From positions 1 through 60,636 of the forward strand of contig WRAJ01000009.1 in NCBI GenBank assembly GCA_009780245.1: DNA of 60,636 bases. The letters are read 5' to 3'. This DNA is from Turicibacter sp. Its GTDB lineage: Bacteria; Bacillota_I; Bacilli_A; MOL361; Turicibacteraceae. Positions within the stretch are counted from its first letter, which is position 1. Every line of letters begins with the position of its first letter. This document shows positions 405 through 60,082 of this stretch, piece by piece. Both the position numbers and the translations under genes were made by a program. Under the pieces are notes generated by a model that was not told the DNA's origin, made no database searches, and saw only the letters and a list, made by a program, of their open reading frames with translations.

Positions 405-1709
405 ATGTTTAAGCGAATAGGAATCGCACTTTTACTAGCATTCACCATGCTACTAGCACTACTACACCTAGAGACGGAAAACCCTACAGTGGTTGCGTAT
501 GCATCACCCACTTGTTCGTCGGTATCGGAATGCGCAGATCTTGCAACTGAGGCACGTGATAGTATCACAGAACTTGTTGGGCAAGAGAACGAATTGAGCG
601 ATGACATTGCGAGATTAAATGCGGAAATCACGGATTTAAGGACGACAAACGACGGTTTAGAATTCTCAATTAGTGCCGCGATGATTGACATTGCGAATCT
701 TGAAATTGAGATTGCAGAAAATAGGGAATGGTTAGCAGAAACAGAAATTGAAATTGAAGGCTTATTAGACGCGGTTGCTGCGCGCATGCGTTTAACGCAG
801 CAAATCGATGGCATCAATCCGATCGCGCTCATTTTAACTGAGAACGATGATTTGACGGACATCATTGCTCAAATTCGTTTCTTCAGTCGCATCGTGGCAA
901 CTGACGCAGACATCATGGATCAACTGGTCGCGCTTGTTGGCACTTACGATACCATCATTGAAGACTTGGCTTATCAAGCAGAAATGTTAGCGGCGACTAG
1001 AGCCAGTTTAGAAATTGAACAAAGTGTGCTGATTGCTAATCAAAACGACTTGTTGTTTTTAGAAGGGCAACTACGCGAGGAATTGTACGGCATCGGCATT
1101 CAACGCATGAACGAAGAAGAAACGCTTGCTGCCATCGAAGAGATGCGTTTGGTTTTAGAACAGACGCCACCACCACCAATCGCAACGCCACCGGCAGCAC
1201 CGGTGCCAGATGTGCCACCGCCGGCAGCGGATACAGGTTCGACGCCAGAGGCACCGGTGGCTCCTGCGCCACCACCACCGGCAGCACCAGAGGCGAACAC
1301 GGGAATGACACATCCTATGCCTGCTGGACGAGGCAATATCACTTCTCATTTTGGTCCAAGAACATTGGACGGCTTTCATTGGGGCATTGACTGGGCGGCT
1401 CCTGGATTTCCACCGATCTTAGCCGCAGCATCAGGTACAGTCGTAAGAAACGGGTACAACGCTGGCGGATGGGGCTATTACATCATCCTTTCTCACATGA
1501 TCAACGGTGAACGAGTAGATACCGTATACGCTCATTTCCATTATCAATCATCAATTGCTGTCGGAACGATTGTCTCACAGGGACAAGTGATTGGAACACA
1601 AGGGAATACTGGGTTTTCGTTTGGGGCACATTTACACTTTGAAGTGCACCCAGGCGGATTCGGCTGGCAGACTGCGGTGGATCCAATAAGTTGGATTCCT
1701 AATCCTTAG
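405..1709 (+). CDS. Secreted M23 murein hydrolase with N-terminal coiled coil (PcsB/CwlO-like), paralogue 1
   Basis: The 434-aa protein has a signal peptide (residues 1 to about 32), a short Cys-containing motif (TCSSVSECADLATEA), a long coiled-coil region (about 50-245) and a Pro/Ala-rich linker (about 250-295). A C-terminal M23 (LytM-type) zinc endopeptidase domain follows. The zinc ligands are visible as HWGID and GAHLHFEVH. Such proteins cut peptide cross-links in peptidoglycan, and the coiled coil usually holds the enzyme inactive until a partner such as FtsEX activates it. AAAGGAG lies upstream of the ATG. It is the first of three tandem paralogues (1878 and 3326), each with its own promoter and terminator. 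The exact bond cut is not shown by sequence. Confidence 0.9.
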   Translation: MFKRIGIALLLAFTMLLALLHLETENPTVVAYASPTCSSVSECADLATEARDSITELVGQENELSDDIARLNAEITDLRTTNDGLEFSISAAMIDIANLEIEIAENREWLAETEIEIEGLLDAVAARMRLTQQIDGINPIALILTENDDLTDIIAQIRFFSRIVATDADIMDQLVALVGTYDTIIEDLAYQAEMLAATRASLEIEQSVLIANQNDLLFLEGQLREELYGIGIQRMNEEETLAAIEEMRLVLEQTPPPPIATPPAAPVPDVPPPAADTGSTPEAPVAPAPPPPAAPEANTGMTHPMPAGRGNITSHFGPRTLDGFHWGIDWAAPGFPPILAAASGTVVRNGYNAGGWGYYIILSHMINGERVDTVYAHFHYQSSIAVGTIVSQGQVIGTQGNTGFSFGAHLHFEVHPGGFGWQTAVDPISWIPNP

Positions 1710-1712
1710 CAG

Positions 1713-1748
1713 AAAATAGACTTTACTGAATCCGGTAAAGTCTATTTT
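1713..1748. terminator. Bidirectional terminator after M23 paralogue 1
   Basis: A 14-bp perfect stem (AAAATAGACTTTAC pairing with GTAAAGTCTATTTT) with an 8-nt loop. A-runs and T-runs flank it on both sides. Confidence 0.8.
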
Positions 1749-1800
1749 GATGTATGAGCGGTTTTAAGCAGAAAAATCTTAAGAAAATTTTAAGATTTTC

Positions 1801-1829
1801 TTGAAATCTCAATGATTTTCATGTAAAAT
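1801..1829 (+). promoter_or_regulatory. sigma-A promoter of second M23 gene
   Basis: TTGAAA (1801-1806), 17-bp spacer, TAAAAT (1824-1829). Its sequence differs from the matched pair of promoters at 294 and 3226, so this middle paralogue may be controlled differently. Confidence 0.65.
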
Positions 1830-1877
1830 CAAAGGTGACTTTGCTTAAAAAAGTAGAAACAAGAAGGAGCGTTAATT

Positions 1878-3101
1878 ATGATGAAGAGGATAGGAACAAG
1901 CTTACTTTTAGCTTCCACTATGCTTGTATCAACATTAAACTTAGGAGTAACACAAGCGTATGCAGCACCTACGTGTCGTACCATCTCAGAATGTGCAGAT
2001 CTTGCAACTGAAGCACGCGATAACATCGCAGATTTTATGATTCTAGAAGATGCATTAAACGCAGACATTGCCGAGCTAGAGGCTCAAATCACGCAATTAC
2101 GTAGTGAAATTGATGAGCTAGAAGTGTCAATCGCTGAGACAGAGTTGGCGATTACAGGATTACTAGAGGAAATCGTGGCAAACACGGAAGAGCTAGAGCG
2201 CATTTCAGAAGAAATTGACGTTTTGCTTGCGAACGTGGCCGAGCGTATGGTGATTACGCAACGCATGGATAACAGAAATGCCACACTTGTTCTGTTTACT
2301 GAAAGTGCCGATTTAACTGATTTCATCGGTCAATTAAGATTTTTCAACCGCATTGCGACAACCGACGCGGACATCATGGATCAACTTTCTGATTTATTAG
2401 ACGAGTACGATTCGATTTTGTATGAGTTACAAGAAAGCATGCTGATTCATGAAGAGATTCAAGCTGAACTCGAGGAAGACCTTGCTGTTTTAGAACAGAG
2501 CCAAGAAGAGCTTGCTGATTTAGAAGCAGCACTAAGAGAAGAGTTATACGAAATCGGTGTTCAAAGAATGTCTGAAGAAGACGCATTAGCAGCAGCGGAA
2601 GCAGCGCAAGCCGTTTTAGAGTACACACCAGCACCGGCGATTGTTACCAATAACACAAGTTCATCTGGTGGTGGCGGTAGTAACGTAAGTGCAGGAACTA
2701 ACAGTGGGATGACGCACCCGATGCCAGGTTCACGCGTCACGTCAGAATTCGGCCCAAGATGGGGCGGACACCATTCAGGGATTGACGTTCAAATTTTTGG
2801 TGCTAGGCCGGCTATTTTAGCAGCAGCATCAGGCGTTGTAACGGTTAACACTTGGCACGATGCACTTGGTTGGTACATGATTATTTCACATGACATCAAC
2901 GGTAGTCGCGTGGATACGTTATACGCTCACATGGAATACCAATCGCCACAATCGGTTGGAACGGTTGTTTCACAAGGACAAGCGATTGGGACACAAGGAA
3001 ACACTGGTTTCTCTACGGGTGCGCATTTGCACTTTGAAATTCACCCAGGTGGCTTCTCATGGAACGGTGGGGTTAACCCGCGAAACTGGATTATTTTCTA
3101 A
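1878..3101 (+). CDS. Secreted M23 murein hydrolase with N-terminal coiled coil, paralogue 2
   Basis: The 407-aa protein has the same layout as its two neighbours: signal peptide, Cys motif TCRTISECADLATEA, a long coiled coil rich in Glu/Leu heptads (about 45-245), then an M23 domain with HHSGIDVQ and GAHLHFEIH zinc-ligand motifs. Its linker (about 255-275) is Gly/Ser-rich and short, unlike the Pro/Ala-rich linker of paralogue 1. AAGGAG precedes the tandem ATGs at 1878 and 1881. It is expected to act outside the membrane on peptidoglycan peptides. The M23 domain is more diverged than in paralogues 1 and 3, which share the HWGIDWAAPGF block, so it may have a different substrate or partner. Confidence 0.9.
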   Translation: MMKRIGTSLLLASTMLVSTLNLGVTQAYAAPTCRTISECADLATEARDNIADFMILEDALNADIAELEAQITQLRSEIDELEVSIAETELAITGLLEEIVANTEELERISEEIDVLLANVAERMVITQRMDNRNATLVLFTESADLTDFIGQLRFFNRIATTDADIMDQLSDLLDEYDSILYELQESMLIHEEIQAELEEDLAVLEQSQEELADLEAALREELYEIGVQRMSEEDALAAAEAAQAVLEYTPAPAIVTNNTSSSGGGGSNVSAGTNSGMTHPMPGSRVTSEFGPRWGGHHSGIDVQIFGARPAILAAASGVVTVNTWHDALGWYMIISHDINGSRVDTLYAHMEYQSPQSVGTVVSQGQAIGTQGNTGFSTGAHLHFEIHPGGFSWNGGVNPRNWIIF

Positions 3102-3125
3102 ATTCGATTTTTAATAACAAACAAG

Positions 3126-3160
3126 AAATGAGCGTTGCTACATCAGCAACGCTCATTTTT
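3126..3160. terminator. Terminator after M23 paralogue 2
   Basis: Stem AATGAGCGTTGCT with AGCAACGCTCATT, 5-nt loop, followed by a T-run. Confidence 0.85.
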
Positions 3161-3225
3161 AATTCGTCATTTGGTAACAAAACGGGACGAAATGGCATGA
3201 TTTTTCAGATTTATCTCAACGGCCA

Positions 3226-3254
3226 TTGAAGTGTCGCCTAAGGTGTAGTATAAT
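3226..3254 (+). promoter_or_regulatory. sigma-A promoter of third M23 gene
   Basis: TTGAAG (3226-3231), 17-bp spacer, TATAAT (3249-3254). The -35, the TGTAG before the -10 and the -10 itself match the promoter at 294-322. Confidence 0.75.
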
Positions 3255-3325
3255 AGACATAGCTTTGCTTATATTTCTAATTGTTTGGGTGTAAACAAAG
3301 TGGCAGTAAAAAAGGAGTGTAAATT

Positions 3326-4564
3326 ATGTTTAAGCGAATAGGAAGAAGCTTTATATTAGCGTTCACTATGCTTATAGCACTAATATATTTTGTAGGACTA
3401 ACCCCAACAGTAGCCTATGCAACGCCAGTATGCGGTAGCATCTCAGAATGTGCTGAACTAGCATCCGAAACTAGTGACAATATTGCAGAAATTATGGGCC
3501 GCGAAAATGAACTTAGTGAAGACATTGCTGATCTAAATGCAGAAATTACAACCATGAGGGCTGAAATTGAAAGTTTAGAATTAGCCATTGCTTCAACCGT
3601 GATAGAATTGACTAATCTGCAAGATGACATGGCAGAAAATAGAGAATTGCTTGAAGCAACAGAAGAAGAAATTGAAGATTTGCTTGAAGCGATTGGCGCA
3701 CGCATGCGTGTGACGCAACAGATCGAAAGTGTGAATCCCGTCATTATGATCTTTACGGAAAGTGAAGATTTGGTGGACATCATTGCTCAGATCCGATTTT
3801 TTAATCGCATTGCGGAGTACGATGCGGATGTGATGGATCAGCTGATTGAATGGCTTGATATTTATGACACGATCATTGAAGAATTAGCGATTCAGGTTGA
3901 GGTGCATGCAGACATGCAAGCGAGCTTAGAGGTGCAACAAAATGAACTGCTTACCGCTCAATTTGATTTGATCTTTCTAGAAGGAGAGATTCGCGAAGAG
4001 CTCTATCAACTTGGACTTGAAAGAATGAGTGAAGAAGACATGCTAATTGCAGCTGAAGAAGCGCAATTAATTTTTGAACAATCACCGCCGCCTCTAACTA
4101 CAACCGGTACGACGACGGCGTCACCAGGTAATCTTGCTAACAATTCTGGCATGACGCATCCGATGCCAGCAGGGCGTGGTAATGTGATGTCTGAGTTTGG
4201 GATGAGAACGCTAGGCGGAAGTACACACATGCATTGGGGCATTGATTGGGCAGCGCCTGGTTTCCCACCGATTTTAGCAGCAGCATCAGGCACTGTGGTA
4301 AGAAACTCGTATAACGCTGGTGGCTGGGGGTGGTACGTGATTATCGCCCACATGATCGACGGTCATCGTGTGGATACTTTATACGCACATTTTCATTATC
4401 GATCACCACTTGAGGCAAATACAGTTGTCGCACAAGGCGATGTGATTGGGACGCAAGGTAATACGGGATTTTCTTTCGGTGCGCACTTGCACTTTGAAGT
4501 ACACCCAGGCGGATTCGGTATCGGGAACGCCGTTGACCCAAGAGGATGGATTCCTAATCCTTAA
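3326..4564 (+). CDS. Secreted M23 murein hydrolase with N-terminal coiled coil, paralogue 3
   Basis: The 412-aa protein carries a signal peptide, the conserved Cys motif VCGSISECAELASE, a coiled coil (about 50-250) and a short Thr/Ser linker. The M23 domain has HWGIDWAAPGFPP and GAHLHFEVHPGG. Both the M23 domain and the promoter are closest to paralogue 1, which suggests these two are the more recent duplicates. AAAGGAG lies before the ATG. The gene lies just upstream of mbl, whose product guides cylindrical wall synthesis. That neighbourhood fits a role in wall growth, but this is inference. Confidence 0.9.
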   Translation: MFKRIGRSFILAFTMLIALIYFVGLTPTVAYATPVCGSISECAELASETSDNIAEIMGRENELSEDIADLNAEITTMRAEIESLELAIASTVIELTNLQDDMAENRELLEATEEEIEDLLEAIGARMRVTQQIESVNPVIMIFTESEDLVDIIAQIRFFNRIAEYDADVMDQLIEWLDIYDTIIEELAIQVEVHADMQASLEVQQNELLTAQFDLIFLEGEIREELYQLGLERMSEEDMLIAAEEAQLIFEQSPPPLTTTGTTTASPGNLANNSGMTHPMPAGRGNVMSEFGMRTLGGSTHMHWGIDWAAPGFPPILAAASGTVVRNSYNAGGWGWYVIIAHMIDGHRVDTLYAHFHYRSPLEANTVVAQGDVIGTQGNTGFSFGAHLHFEVHPGGFGIGNAVDPRGWIPNP

Positions 4565-5900: not shown

Positions 5901-6280
5901 AGCGTGCCTTTTCGATGAAAATACGAGAAAAGGCGTGTTCTTCAGTTGATGAGTTCCTCAAAACCACGCCTTTTCAGTAAAAACGAAAGAAAAGGCGCTC
6001 ACTCCGGCTGATGAGACACTCAAAACCACGCCTTTTCCGAGAAAACACTAAGGAAAGGCATGTTCTCCAGCTGATGGTCTCTTCAAAACCACACCTTTTC
6101 CGAGAAAACACAATAAAAGGCATGTCTTCCAACCGATAAGACGCTCAAAACCACGCCTTTTCGAGGAAAAAAGAATAAAAGGCATGTTCTCTAGCTGATG
6201 GTCTCTTCAAAACCACGCCTTTTCAACAAAAACATAAGAAAAGGCGCATTCTCCAGCTGATAAGACCACTCAAAAACATG
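5901..6280. repeat. Hairpin array A: six 62-bp units between mbl and rarA
   Basis: Six tandem units, each with left arm GCCTTTTC and right arm GAAAAGGC. The left arms start at 5906, 5968, 6030, 6093, 6155 and 6217 (spacings 62, 62, 63, 62, 62). Within each unit left to right arm is 21-22 bp, and right arm to next left arm is 41 bp. Arm changes in units 3-5 leave partial stems. The remainder of each unit is also conserved (ending CTTCAAAACCA or similar). It fills the whole 510-bp gap. No gene is visible here. Confidence 0.9.
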
Positions 6281-6338
6281 CTCTATGTGCGAAAGCGATA
6301 TAATATAAACTTAATGATACAATAGAAGGAGAAGTAAA

Positions 6339-7607: not shown

Positions 7608-7625
7608 TGTCGCGTTATATGCGGA

Positions 7626-7862
7626 GCCTCGAAAAGTCACAGAACGAGTAGATCCACGAAAATCATGACTTTTGGCTCCCAGTTTGAGCCGTCAAAAGTC
7701 ACAGAACTGAGGAAACCGCGAAAATCATGACTTTTCGCTCCCAATTTGAGCCTCGAAAAGTCACAGAACTAATGGATCCGCGAAAATCATGATTTTTGGC
7801 TCCCAATTTGAGCCCCGAAAAGTCACAGAACTAATGAAACTGCAAATCTAATGACTTTTGAT
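7626..7862. repeat. Hairpin array B: four 62-bp units between rarA and rpmB
   Basis: Left arms AAAAGTCA at 7632, 7694, 7756 and 7818 (spacing exactly 62 each time). Right arms TGACTTTT follow 34 bp after each left arm. A second small palindrome (GGCTC, 7 nt, GAGCC) bridges consecutive units. The array starts right after the rarA stop and ends about 20 bp before the rpmB promoter. The sequence is unrelated to array A although the unit length is the same. Confidence 0.9.
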
Positions 7863-14945: not shown

Positions 14946-15084
14946 TAGAGGCTGTTTGCTTCTGCTTTTTCTTTTGGGATGGAAGTTCATATTGGTGGGG
15001 TTGGTTCATAAGCTAGTTGTATGGGGTTTGGTTTGGTTTAAGTTTGAGTGCCTTTTAGCTGCCCCCTTTTTGGTTATTAGGCTG

Positions 15085-15335
15085 GTGTGCTCTTTAGTTT
15101 TTTGAGGGTTAGCGCCCTTTCGGTGACCATGACGTGAACGACCCTTGATTTTGTTTTAGGTCATTGCGTTTGTTTTTTGCTCTTTAGCTACCGCGTCTTT
15201 TGGCTTACTGGGGTAGTGATTAGGTGTTACCTGCACCGGTTTTTATGTAGCGAATGGCATTCAAGACTTCGCAATTTATTGCGATATAGTCTTGTAGCAT
15301 GCAGCTACAAGCAGCTAACACCTAATCACTACCTT
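15085..15335 (+). repeat. Structured dispersed repeat R1, copy 1 (longest)
   Basis: The copy shares with 55567-55745 and 59878-59932 the module GGGTTAGCGCCCTTTCGGTGA and a T-rich flank. It continues with the TAGCTACCGCG and CTTTTGGCTTACTGGGGTAG modules. An outer stem GGTAGTGATTAGGTGTTA (15212-15229) pairs perfectly with 15316-15333. Inside are two more hairpins: AAGACT/CGCAAT with ATTGCG/AGTCTT (15263-15293) and CTTGTAGC with GCTACAAG (15291-15311). It fills the 447-bp gap after rbfA together with a G/T-rich lead-in (14946-15084). No convincing gene is visible; the element could be a structured RNA or a miniature mobile element. Confidence 0.8.
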
Positions 15336-15410
15336 ATATGTAGGGTTAATGTGTATGAGGTGTATGTATTAAGTATTTGGTAAAATAGGGTTGTGAAGGA
15401 TATGAAAATA

Positions 15411-21264: not shown

Positions 21265-21383
21265 TCAAGCTTTTGTTAGAACTTCCGAATGTTGCGATAT
21301 TAACGTAGCATTTGGGGGTTTTTGGCATTAGCGAGACTCCAGTAGTTTCATAGCATTCACTCTTATTATATAGATCATTCCGG

Positions 21384-21688
21384 AATGTCAACTTTTTCAC
21401 GATTTTCATCGAAAAGTTGACATTTTCGGAGGGTTGATTCGCATGGAATATCAACTTTTGTTTTATTTTCATCGAAAAGTTGATATTATCAAAAATTCTA
21501 TCTGAATAAAATATCAACTTTTGATCGATTTTAAATAAAAAGTTGATATTATCAGAGAATTCCTTTGGGTATAATGTCAACTTTTTCGAGTTTTAGCTCA
21601 ATAAGTTGACATTATACAAAAAACGATCTTGTTCGATCGCTGAAGAATATCAACTTTTACATAATTTCCGTTAAAAAGTTGACATTTT
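21384..21688. repeat. Hairpin array C: five units inside the siderophore locus
   Basis: Left arms TCAACTTTT at 21388, 21451, 21514, 21577 and 21650 (spacings 63, 63, 63, 73), each followed by right arm AAAAGTTGA or a near match. The arm extensions co-vary: units 1 and 4 read TGTCAAC with GTTGACA, units 2 and 3 read TATCAAC with GTTGATA. It fills most of the gap between yclQ and yclN. A single unit of the same family is at 35468-35504. Confidence 0.9.
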
Positions 21689-21822
21689 GCGAAACGGCTT
21701 TAATAACGGGTGAAACGGGCGTGAAGGATTCGACTGTATCCTTGATAAAAAGCTAAAAATATTGTAAAATAATGGTTTGAGCAGAATTCTTTAGGGGTCT
21801 GCTAAGTGATAGGTGTGTTAAC

Positions 21823-29702: not shown

Positions 29703-29778
29703 TGGTGTCCTGTAGAGGATTCGAACCTCTGACCCTCTGATTAAAAGTCAGATGCTCTACCAACTGAGCTAACAGGAC
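29703..29778 (-). tRNA. tRNA-Lys (anticodon TTT)
   Basis: 76 nt with encoded CCA. Acceptor GTCCTGT pairs with ACAGGAC. Anticodon loop reads CTTTTAA, D arm TAGCTCAGTTGG, T arm GGTTCGAATCC. A 5'-half copy of this gene is repeated upstream (29906-29955). Confidence 0.95.
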
Positions 29779-29955
29779 TAACTAGGTAAATATTAAATTT
29801 TAAACACGCGTGGTGCATCTGACGGTCAGTTCCTGACCAATCGCTAGGCGCGATGATTCGGTTCGCAAGCTTCACCTCAGTCGTCGCAACTTCGCCTGCT
29901 CCTCGTGCTCTACCAACTGAGCTAACAGGACTAACTAGGTAAATATTAAATTTTA
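29753..29955. repeat. 50-bp perfect direct repeat containing the 5' part of tRNA-Lys
   Basis: Bases 29753-29802 are identical to 29906-29955 (offset 153). Each copy holds the acceptor 5' strand and D arm of tRNA-Lys plus its upstream flank. The 103 bp between them (29803-29905) is GC-richer and unrelated to the neighbouring tRNAs. The outer copy is a broken tRNA with no anticodon or T arm. Confidence 0.9.
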
Positions 29956-35343: not shown

Positions 35344-35467
35344 TTAGTCAGGGTTCAATAAAACTTTAGTCAGGGTGAATGGTCACTTTCTGTGGAGTGG
35401 TGCATGGTTAAGCATTGACCACACCCATTCTATAAAATCCATTCGCCGTACAACTTATCATTGATAA

Positions 35468-35504
35468 TATCAACTTTCGCACGATTTTTTTAAAAAAGTT
35501 GACA
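35468..35504. repeat. Single hairpin unit H of the array C family
   Basis: TATCAACTTT (35468) pairs with AAAGTTGACA (35495-35504). Stem sequence and loop resemble array C units at 21384-21688. It is isolated, not tandem. Confidence 0.6.
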
Positions 35505-35593
35505 TTATTAATGCGATCAGACCGATTAGCAGTTACATTGGCTTTAAATTTGTAAGAAGTCGTTGATAAAACAAGAAAAAGCTAGATGTAAAA

Positions 35594-52556: not shown

Positions 52557-52680
52557 TTTTCCCTATGATACCCGTATATCGGGGTAGTGTAGGGAAAAAT
52601 TTCCCTAGATGGCTCATATATCAGGGGGGTGTAGGGAAAAATTTCCCTACTTTGCTCTGTAGCAGGGCATTCTAGGGAAT
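52557..52680. repeat. Hairpin array F: three 42-bp units between htpG and fbaA
   Basis: TTTCCCTA at 52558, 52600 and 52642 (spacing 42, 42), with TAGGGAAA at 52590 and 52632 and a shorter TAGGGAA at 52673. Right arm and next left arm abut, making near-palindromes such as GGGAAAAATTTCCC. It sits between convergent genes. A worn fourth unit may be at 52693-52702. Confidence 0.82.
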
Positions 52681-53763: not shown

Positions 53764-55536
53764 ATGTCAAATGGTTTAAAAACATATCTTCTTTATAGAG
53801 AGATCAGTACAAACGAGGATGTGTTTAAAATGTTAGCAACTTACAAAGCAGGTGTGTTCGTAACGAAATTCGAGTCGTCTTATGCGACGGTGGACCAGCG
53901 GTATAAATGTGTGATGCAGGGGCGGATTTACAACGCGTCGGAGATTACAGCGAAGTTGAAGAAAGCCGGTATTTATTTGAAGACGGAAGCCCCGGCCGAG
54001 ATGCTCATGGAATTATATCGTTTTAGCGGGGCGGCGGCTTGGAACGAATTGCGAGGTGATTTTGCGATTGTGATGATCGACCAAAAGGCCCAGAAACTGG
54101 TGGCGGTTCGGGATGGCTTTGGTACTCAGCCGCTCTATTATAAGTTGGATGCTGACGGCGTAAGCGTGGCCTCGCGGATCAGCAAGTTAGAAGTGCATCG
54201 CTGCTTGACGGAAAAAGAGCTAGACATCGACGCGCTGAATCACTATTTCACGTTTCAATACATTCCCGAAGAACAGACTTATCTGAAAAACGTGAAGCAC
54301 CTCACCGCCGGGTGCGTCTTAACATATGACGCGAAAAACGGGGTGGAGATTAATCCTTATCAAACCATGAAAGTCATTGAAGGAAGCGATGTGTCAACCT
54401 TAACGCCAGAGCTTGTCCGGGAAACCATCTCCGAATCCATCCACACCCGGTTGCAGGGCGATCTCTGCATCGGCACCTTTTTATCCGGGGGCATTGACTC
54501 CACGATCGTCGCCAAAATCGCCAAACAGTTTCACTCCAATATCAAGGCCTTCTCGATCGGTTACGATTTGCCGGCGTATAGCGAGCTCGGTGATGCGGAA
54601 CGGTCTGCCGAAGCGATGGGCATTGAGCTGATCAGCCGCGTGGTGAACGCTAGGGAATACTGGCAAGCGACAAAAGCCGCGATTGTTCACTTGGAATCCC
54701 CCCTTGCTGATCCCTCTGCGCCTGTTTTGTATTTACTGGCCGAGCTGGCAGCGGGGAAAGTCGACGCTGTGTTATCAGGGGAAGGCGCAGACGAGCTGTT
54801 TGGTGGGTACCCGATCTATCAAGAAGTGGACGGGCTAAAATTATTCACACATGTACCGGATCGGCTGAGGTCACATTTGCGAAACGTCTCGAAGTCTTTG
54901 CCTGACGTGAAAGGAAAAGGGTACGTCGTGCGCGGTACGACACCGTTGAAAGAGCGTTACGTGGGCAATGCCTTCATTTTTAGCGAGGAAGAAAAAGCGG
55001 AACTGCTCACCTTCACAGGCGCCCCGTGGCAACGTGTGACGGATCCGATTTATGAAAAGATTAGTGACTTAGCTCCGCTGGAACAAATGCAAACCATTGA
55101 TTTGCATACGTGGGTGAAAGGGGATATTTTACTTAAGGCGCAGCGGTTGACACAGGCACATGGTTTGGAAGTCCGAATGCCGTTTTTAGACGATAACGTG
55201 TTAGGCGTGGCGAATGAGCTGACGAAGACTGAGAAAATTTTGGGAAAGACGTCCAAGGCGTTGCTGCGTGAAGCATTTAAACATGACTTGCCGGCGCACA
55301 TGTATCAGATGAAAAAACGAGGGTTCCCGGTGCCACTTGCCGTTTGGCTGCGAGGGGAGCTGTATGACGAGGTGCATGCGGTGTTGTGTTGTCCTCACGC
55401 ACGCCAGTTTATCAATCAGGAGATGGCGCTTGAAATGTTGGCGGTTCATTTGAAGGGGAAGCGGGATTTGAGTCGGCCTTTGTGGACGTTGATTGTTTTT
55501 GTTTTGTGGTTGCGGGAGAAGTGTTTGGTGGGGTGA
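53764..55536 (+). CDS. Asparagine synthase homologue lacking the N-terminal catalytic cysteine
   Basis: The 590-aa protein has the two-domain layout of glutamine-dependent asparagine synthetases. The glutaminase half lacks the required start MCGxxG: the N-terminus is MSNGLKTYLLYREISTNEDV, with no Cys at position 2. The synthase half is intact: PP-loop FLSGGIDSTIVAKI, LSGEGADELFGGYPIY and VRMPFLDDNVLGVANELT. It may use free ammonia, a partner glutaminase, or a different amine. The closest context is sporulation AsnO of Bacillus, but that has Cys 2. No in-frame upstream start would restore MCG. Shine-Dalgarno is weak (TAGGG). The 3' third is G/T-rich. Confidence 0.82.
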   Translation: MSNGLKTYLLYREISTNEDVFKMLATYKAGVFVTKFESSYATVDQRYKCVMQGRIYNASEITAKLKKAGIYLKTEAPAEMLMELYRFSGAAAWNELRGDFAIVMIDQKAQKLVAVRDGFGTQPLYYKLDADGVSVASRISKLEVHRCLTEKELDIDALNHYFTFQYIPEEQTYLKNVKHLTAGCVLTYDAKNGVEINPYQTMKVIEGSDVSTLTPELVRETISESIHTRLQGDLCIGTFLSGGIDSTIVAKIAKQFHSNIKAFSIGYDLPAYSELGDAERSAEAMGIELISRVVNAREYWQATKAAIVHLESPLADPSAPVLYLLAELAAGKVDAVLSGEGADELFGGYPIYQEVDGLKLFTHVPDRLRSHLRNVSKSLPDVKGKGYVVRGTTPLKERYVGNAFIFSEEEKAELLTFTGAPWQRVTDPIYEKISDLAPLEQMQTIDLHTWVKGDILLKAQRLTQAHGLEVRMPFLDDNVLGVANELTKTEKILGKTSKALLREAFKHDLPAHMYQMKKRGFPVPLAVWLRGELYDEVHAVLCCPHARQFINQEMALEMLAVHLKGKRDLSRPLWTLIVFVLWLREKCLVG

Positions 55537-55566
55537 GATGGGTTTGGTTTTTCGGTGATCAGTTTC

Positions 55567-55750
55567 GTGTGCTTTTTAGTTTTGTTTAGGGTTAGCGCCC
55601 TTTCGGTGACGAGGTTGTGAACGACTTTTGAATTTGTTTTGGTGATTGCGATTGTTTTTTGCTTTTTAGCTACCGCGCCTTTTGGCTTACTGGGGTAGTG
55701 ATGAGGTGTTAGCTGCTTCCAGCTAACACCTCATCACTACCTTATATTTT
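55567..55750 (+). repeat. Structured dispersed repeat R1, copy 2
   Basis: Same modules as copy 1 (15085-15335): GGGTTAGCGCCCTTTCGGTGA, TAGCTACCGCG and CTTTTGGCTTACTGGGGTAG. The outer stem is 22 bp and perfect (55694-55715 with 55720-55741), closed by a CTTC loop. The stem reads GTGATGAGG here and GTGATTAGG in copy 1, with the matching change in the other arm (CCTCATCAC versus CCTAATCAC). It fills the gap after the asparagine synthase gene; 55751-55938 shows nothing else. Confidence 0.82.
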
Positions 55751-55938
55751 GGGTTTTGTGTGAATGATTGAGCTGGCTTAGTGCGCATGAGAATTTTAAG
55801 CTACTACCTTATACTTTTTTATTTTTTTGGAGGTAAGATGTTTGGGGTATGAGTGAAAGCCTAAGTTGATTTTTGTAGCGTTTTCTGGTATGATACGAGG
55901 GAGGAAAATTAGAATTTGAAAAGAGTAAGGTGAGCGCG

Positions 55939-56427
55939 ATGGGAATGGTATATAAGGTAACAAGGTTGACGGTGAGTGGGCAGGATTTTTTTGATACGGT
56001 GATGGAGGGGGTTGTGGATGATATTCACAAGGCCACGACGAAGAAGGTGCCGCCGCATGCGATTGCTGCGGGGTATACGTATAAGAAGGACATTGTGAAC
56101 CGGTCGCGGAATAAGGAAACGGTCCAAGTGAAGATCACGAAGCTTGAGCCGGGTGTGCTTTATGAGGCGGAGATTGACACAGCGATGGGTGTGCATACGA
56201 CGTCGTTTGAGATTAAGGATCTGGGGAATGATCAGTGTGTGGTGACTGCTGGTCAAGGGACGGCTTTGAAGAGTCAAGAAGGTCAGGATACCAGATTCCA
56301 TCGACAAAATCCGATTGTGAGCGCGTTGATTAAAAGTAGTCAGCGTAAGCAGTTAAAGGAGATGGAGAAGTACATTAAGAATAAGAAATTTGAAGCTTCT
56401 CGTGCTTCGAAGGATGAAGAGAACTAG
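55939..56427 (+). CDS. DUF3284-like protein
   Basis: The 162-aa protein has the DUF3284 pattern: LTVSGQDFFDTVMEGVVDDI, a Lys-rich middle (TYKKDIVNRSRNKETVQVKI), FEIKDLGNDQ, and a C-terminal Lys-rich helix (QRKQLKEMEKYIKNKKFEAS). The family is uncharacterised, common in Bacilli, and resembles START-like lipid/hydrophobe-binding folds. I chose ATG 55939, 5 nt after AAGGTGA. The next gene follows after 16 bp. Confidence 0.72.
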   Translation: MGMVYKVTRLTVSGQDFFDTVMEGVVDDIHKATTKKVPPHAIAAGYTYKKDIVNRSRNKETVQVKITKLEPGVLYEAEIDTAMGVHTTSFEIKDLGNDQCVVTAGQGTALKSQEGQDTRFHRQNPIVSALIKSSQRKQLKEMEKYIKNKKFEASRASKDEEN

Positions 56428-59867: not shown

Positions 59868-59877
59868 GCCATTCGGG

Positions 59878-59932
59878 GTGCTCTTTAGTTTTGTTGGGGG
59901 TTAGCGCCCTTTCGGTGATCATGATGTGAAAG
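59878..59932 (+). repeat. Structured dispersed repeat R1, copy 3 (truncated)
   Basis: It keeps only the 5' modules of R1: GTGCTCTTTAGTTTTG and GGGTTAGCGCCCTTTCGGTGA followed by TCATGATGTGAA. The stem-forming 3' part is absent, and hairpin array E begins 8 bp later. Confidence 0.75.
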
Positions 59933-59940
59933 TATCGATA

Positions 59941-60082
59941 TGCACCTCAAAGCATTCAAATGCTATCAAAAGGGTGCAACGTTGCACCTTAATGTGCCCT
60001 TATACAAAAAAAGGGTGCAACACTGCACCTTAATGGTTCTTATAGCAACAAAAGGGTGCAGTCAATGAGTGTTTCGTAATTG
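59941..60082. repeat. Hairpin array E: three 41/42-bp units upstream of rseP, same family as array D
   Basis: TGCACC at 59941, 59983 and 60024 (spacing 42, 41), each paired with GGGTGCA (59972, 60013, 60054). One junction, GGTGCAACGTTGCACC, is a perfect 16-bp palindrome. After the array come GGTGCAGTC, six bases, and TGTTTCGTAATTG (60070-60082). The same layout occurs upstream of the patatin gene (array D, other strand). Confidence 0.85.

Follow-up and report, generated by a model that had tools for sequence, protein, structure and literature searches.

Pneumococcal BOX elements (boxA-boxBn-boxC) are, in the part of the published account drawn on here, intergenic, modular and strongly folded, have variable internal units but no gene of their own, are thought to be parasitic and non-autonomous, and are over-represented between convergent genes; the same part describes no G+T-rich zone around them (PMC3049150). 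REP and BIME sequences, moved by TnpA-REP, are short intergenic palindromes recognised as folded single strands (PMC8266576). Integron attC sites lie on the 3' side of genes in one orientation, are recognised through their folded bottom strand and conserve structure over sequence (PMC5371416). The repeat analysed here, R1, shares the organisation of BOX, including internal units that vary in number (one to three 5' units and an optional 82-nt insert), although its host lineage differs and, unlike BOX, it occurs almost only between co-directional genes and in one orientation. Compared with REP, its hairpin is longer (22 bp) and forms part of a larger modular element. The GTAG found directly 5' of REP palindromes is not conserved: in R1 it lies inside the stem of one allele group only, and the AATTATTTTT alleles are without it. 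The likeness to attC sites is confined to strand logic, since R1 has no integron context and sits among housekeeping operons. The attC core motifs are GTTRRRY and RYYYAAC, and R'/R'' core sites are not shared at the hairpin ends among R1 alleles. MITEs, like R1, are small, non-coding and dispersed, and a copy in the sister species (genome G001) ends in inverted and direct repeats as MITEs do; the R1 copies of the genome studied here show no clear ends and no consistent terminal inverted repeats or target duplications.

Partner enzymes of the known systems were sought by protein family. A Y1 transposase (TnpA-REP type, PF01797) was absent from the recovered 76% of the genome, an absence that is not final, and TnpB (PF07282), the partner expected for an IS605 end or omega-RNA, was absent both from this genome and from G001, the only other genome of the genus. 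Reverse transcriptases numbered none in the recovered 76% and two in G001. With no reverse transcriptase in the recovered part of R1's own genome and no Rfam intron match, nothing pointed to the relic of a group II intron, retron or DGR.

R1 was recognised in the window, by which we mean the whole 60,636-nt stretch of DNA analysed. Consistently with the original prediction, three copies in the same orientation follow rbfA, an asparagine-synthase-like gene and dxr, without any convincing reading frame, and two of the three carry a terminal stem (Table 1). The inverted repeats of 18 and 22 bp described for copies 1 and 2 are present, with the qualification that in copy 1 the 18 bp are followed by a C·C mismatch and 4 further pairs; the compensatory change from T-A in copy 1 to G-C in copy 2 falls at the 10th stem pair. 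The extra sequence in the loop of copy 1 folds as nested helices, as predicted, but measures 76 nt and not 86 bp. Chance is excluded as the source of the similarity, with E-values as low as 5e-84 (blastn) between the window repeat and other copies in the genome.

Table 1. Positions of R1, its modules and the surrounding G+T maximum in the window
Feature	Position	Strand	Remark
Copy 1 of R1, from the 5' unit through the core and the terminal hairpin, which carries the loop insert, to the right flank	15068..15347	+	after rbfA
R1 core of copy 1, GCGCCCTTTCGGTGACCA ... TTTTGGCTTACTGG	15110..15211	+	
Left arm, terminal hairpin of copy 1	15212..15234	+	arms of 18 bp, C·C mismatch, 4 bp
76-nt insert in the loop of copy 1, structured	15235..15310	+	common to L002 and L003, partly L018
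Right arm, terminal hairpin of copy 1	15311..15333	+	
R1 copy 2, whole, without loop insert	55549..55755	+	after asparagine-synthase-like gene
Copy 2, terminal hairpin of 22 perfect pairs around a CTTC loop	55694..55741	+	arms 55694-55715 / 55720-55741
Truncated copy 3 of R1, with the 5' unit and the first part of the core but without hairpin	59875..59930	+	after dxr
600 nt with the highest G+T (0.695), belonging to the zone of copy 2 and centred on that copy	55417..56017	+	

The window holds further repeats and features. A dispersed short palindrome, TGCACC..GGGTGCA, adjoins two R1 copies (window 59935-60062, and L012 upstream of dnaG). Other intergenic families of short inverted repeats lie at 5907-6296, 7624-7859, 21382-21706, 35464-35526 and 52558-52680; they are mostly tandem arrays with a 62-63-bp period (CACGCCTTTTC..GAAAAGGCGTG; GAAAAGTCA..TGACTTTT; AATGTCAACTTTT..AAAAGTTGACATT), and one other intergenic array has a 42-bp period (TTTCCCTA..TAGGGAAA). 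An identical 50-nt repeat at 29753-29802 and 29906-29955 spans a portion of a tRNA gene together with flanking sequence, although Rfam does not call a tRNA at the second copy, and three tandem paralogous genes at 405-4564 encode coiled-coil peptidoglycan-peptidase-like proteins (M23-type by eye).

The genome to which the window belongs is a draft MAG of 2.1 Mb in 60 contigs, 76% complete; gene calls were our own ORF calls, and replication direction was taken from skew. About 25 R1 loci were found in it by blastn. A covariance model built from 17 copies gave 31 matches, a few of them second pieces of one copy, so that the draft holds about 30 full or partial copies, all in gaps between genes. 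Outside this genome the model matched two loci in G001, L060 (E=3.6e-17) and, tentatively, L062 (E=1e-6), and nothing in six further family members; a search of 296 genomes of the class added a single weak match (E=7e-4), from another family. Exact core patterns in the genome collection and viral contigs gave none, or one chance match in a GC-rich phage gene, and the candidates L135 and L136 were discarded as chance matches. R1 is thus essentially restricted to the genus and expanded in one species. G001 is the MAG Defluviitaleaceae bacterium Th196P1bin8, where Th196 refers to the gut of the termite Termes hospes (PMC7024585), and the organism of the window probably lives in a similar habitat. 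The single complete R1 relative in G001, L060 (C61, 1478-1684), is flanked by 18-20-bp inverted repeats, a perfect 20-bp one enclosing it, with 10-bp direct repeats outside, and its orientation relative to the neighbouring genes is opposite to that of the window genome's copies. On the antisense strand its small core hairpin reads GGU-GAAA-GCC, against GCC-AAAA-GGC in the window's genome, a paired replacement.

Read on the strand of the upstream gene, R1 consists of one to three related 5' units with GCG at their end, a core 98-100 nt long (GCGCCCTTTCGGTGAYCA ... CGCGCCTTTTGGCTTACTGG), an 82-nt insert that is present in seven copies and forms hairpins of its own, the terminal hairpin and then TTATATGTTGGGTT. 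The terminal hairpin, lost in five copies, is conserved by shape and not by sequence: where no loop insert is present it mostly has 22 bp and a 4-nt loop whatever its sequence, and alleles as different as GGTAGTGATTAGGTG..., AATTATTTTTGG... and GGTATTGGTTTGAGG... occur (arms compared by gapless arm count). In alignment A1, in which apex trimming or manual removal of inserts altered some rows while the outer pairs are natural, 98.6% of the hairpin cells were paired and 17 of the 21 pairs showed two-sided changes. The whole tested structure had a covariation score of 0.52, whereas shuffles scored 0.15 and slid partners no more than 0.13; covariation of the stem exceeded 500 of 500 shuffles and all slid controls. 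The structure originally proposed is therefore right, and far more strongly so than had been stated; other copies keep the stem, and none contains a transposase gene. Covariation alone does not prove an RNA, because correction of palindromes at the DNA level can also keep them perfect. Outside the terminal hairpin the core folds poorly, with almost no consensus fold in the window's genome; an outer CCAGT/GGCGC pairing of the core was rejected, being only 23% paired, and Rfam gave no match above the gathering score, only sub-threshold chance matches.

Departures from perfect pairing were strongly polarised between the strands. Single-arm, transition-type departures in 18 R1 hairpins gave G·U on the strand antisense to the genes in 14 cases and on the sense strand in one. 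By automatic count the antisense-to-sense ratio was 17:2 for R1, whereas 36 other hairpins located between co-directional genes on the same contigs gave 18:33 (Fisher p=9e-5); collapsing shared changes to about 8:1 independent events, by our own estimate, still gave p=0.02 when equal odds were assumed and 0.0015 when the background ratio was the reference. Pairing is therefore kept on the antisense strand, contrary to the trend in the rest of the genome. In the linkers, T<->G (A<->C on the antisense strand) was the commonest base exchange across copies. These and the following p-values are uncorrected and come from many tests on one genome, the main ones being far below any such correction. 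Copy number, this mismatch polarity and the zones described below all lay beyond what the original prediction could see from the window.

Wherever the neighbours could be read, R1 stood behind a gene of its own strand and in one orientation. All but one or two copies lie between co-directional genes, compared with 55 convergent or divergent gaps among 198 comparable ones. The gap between rsgA and rpe measures 20 nt in the sister species and contains about 390 bp of R1 in the window's genome, which makes this at least one clear instance of R1 insertion into an operon. The sister species also lacks R1 after rbfA, where the following gene differs. A TAG stop precedes R1 in 12 of 20 cases, against 89 of 335 elsewhere; this did not lead us to a stop-codon target, since the excess may simply be a by-product of the G+T zones. 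No function is common to the genes next to R1.

Nearly every R1 copy lies at the centre of a zone of about 1.4 kb in which the coding strand is shifted to G and T relative to the sister species; besides the maximum at copy 2 (Table 1), the window has comparable peaks at 15249 (0.653) and 59979 (0.635). In genes before R1, third-position G+T rises toward the gene end and is 0.89 over the final 60 nt, where 335 other genes have 0.56, and genes after R1 are G+T-rich from their start. Among 528 co-directional gaps, the 24 with R1 averaged 0.756 upstream and 0.732 downstream, the others 0.532 and 0.545 (p about 1e-11 each), and the averaged profile peaked at R1 and returned to background near 750 nt on either side. 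Within 250 nt of R1, third-position comparison with G001 gave 0.70 for A->G and 0.52 for C->T but 0.18 for G->A and 0.10 for T->C, whereas beyond 1.5 kb all four lay at 0.30-0.34, with a background of 0.33 for A->G; the comparison used 78 G001 orthologues, and its near bins rest on only 6-10 genes. This asymmetry points to a change that took place in the window's lineage and affected a single strand. Substitutions C->G and T->G were raised as well, so the zones are not purely a deamination pattern, and no clear sequence motif accompanied the substitutions.

The zones extend beyond R1. Segments with G+T above 0.75 make up 5.3% of the window's genome and 0.18% of G001, and most zones have no recognisable R1, some lying inside genes (examples are C4:97365, C2:43338, C34:4766, C1:29683 and C3:91082; the sister genome has almost none). 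The strand of the zone is that of the gene in 82 of 92 cases, and several of the minority running against it are strong. Transcription alone is accordingly a doubtful cause, but most zones agree with the gene strand and a transcription-linked cause is possible. Hairpins in general were rejected as the cause, as gaps rich in other palindromes have no zone.

We tentatively read R1, at somewhat less than an even chance, as a non-autonomous, modular, mobile intergenic repeat of REP/BOX-like character that is handled as a folded single strand and becomes established where the coding strand is exposed. Its mobility is supported by the roughly 30 paralogous copies, the nested shared modules, the empty sites in the sister species and the lack of an ORF, and of the three readings offered originally (structured non-coding RNA, retained 3'-UTR element, non-autonomous mobile element) the last fits best. 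The reading also draws on the hairpin covariation, the mismatch polarity, the single orientation, the lineage-specific zones centred on R1, the many zones without it and the repeats at the ends of L060. The form handled would be that of the antisense strand, on which pairing is kept, and copies would settle behind stop codons, always facing the same way. The zones would be the footprint of a coding strand repeatedly exposed as a single strand and drifting to G and T, in which R1 lands and which it does not make. Several observations count against this reading. The recovered 76% of the genome has no Y1 transposase, TnpB or reverse transcriptase, the copies show neither clear ends nor target duplications, and the zones are not of a pure deamination type and mostly follow the gene strand. 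Moreover, an exposed coding strand predicts G·T on that strand in an IS200/IS605-like element, while the R1 hairpin has it on the other, a mismatch that speaks against a simple route of this type. Copying of the template strand with G·T wobble errors would account both for the zones and for the G·T pairs of the antisense strand. That R1 marks, and perhaps drives, a new localised, strand-specific hypermutation, rewriting one strand to G and T on both sides over zones of about 1.4 kb, we regard as possible but doubtful. On a rival reading, R1 itself would make the zone through recurrent strand-specific damage or error-prone copying over about 700 nt on either side, for instance by polymerase stalling. 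The profile centred on R1, the involvement of nearly all R1 gaps, the grading of substitutions with distance and the zone at the convergent C13 copy, which continues on R1's strand into an oppositely oriented gene, all agree with such a cause, yet hairpin-less or fragmentary copies have equally strong zones and changes among the R1 copies themselves are not directed to G/T. The zones without R1, those inside genes or against the gene strand and the palindrome-rich gaps without a zone favour R1 landing in zones, and we consider its making them rather unlikely, even if zones may be left by lost R1 copies.

A role in mRNA is another reading: R1 would be kept, in the 3' UTR or between cistrons, for the protection or processing of operon transcripts, a function of which REP elements are capable. 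This would suit its fixed orientation behind stop codons and inside operons such as rsgA-rpe; it is nevertheless quite improbable, as the single-arm hairpin changes favour the strand that is not in the mRNA, the G001 operons manage without R1, several copies have no hairpin and the adjoining genes share no function. Slightly less probable again is an ordinary MITE mobilised by a double-strand-cutting transposase, with orientation and position set by selection only and the zones a coincidental strand bias. The inverted and direct repeats of L060 are what such an element would leave, but the window genome's copies show no consistent terminal inverted repeats and keep one orientation throughout, and the zones are distinct from other gaps and have no counterpart in the orthologues of the sister. 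The antisense polarity could also suggest that the antisense strand is transcribed into a discrete structured RNA, which would start near AACCCAACATATAA, given the pairing kept there, the exchange of A and C in the linkers, the GAAA-type loops and the fold of L060 (z = -9.8 on the antisense strand, -7.2 on the other). With no evident promoter in the conserved flank, almost no consensus fold of the core, no Rfam match and tens of variable, often truncated copies, this is highly improbable, and a free-standing non-coding RNA is not supported.

Small interspersed repeats are common, and what moves most of them and decides where they sit is an open question on which R1, as a putative mobile repeat, bears, for its orientation is fixed, its hairpin is conserved in structure only and clearly prefers one strand, and the mutational footprint around it has a defined width. 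Should this footprint be older than the insertion, R1 maps where chromosomal DNA is single-stranded; if it follows insertion, a repeat directs hypermutation of the neighbouring genes.
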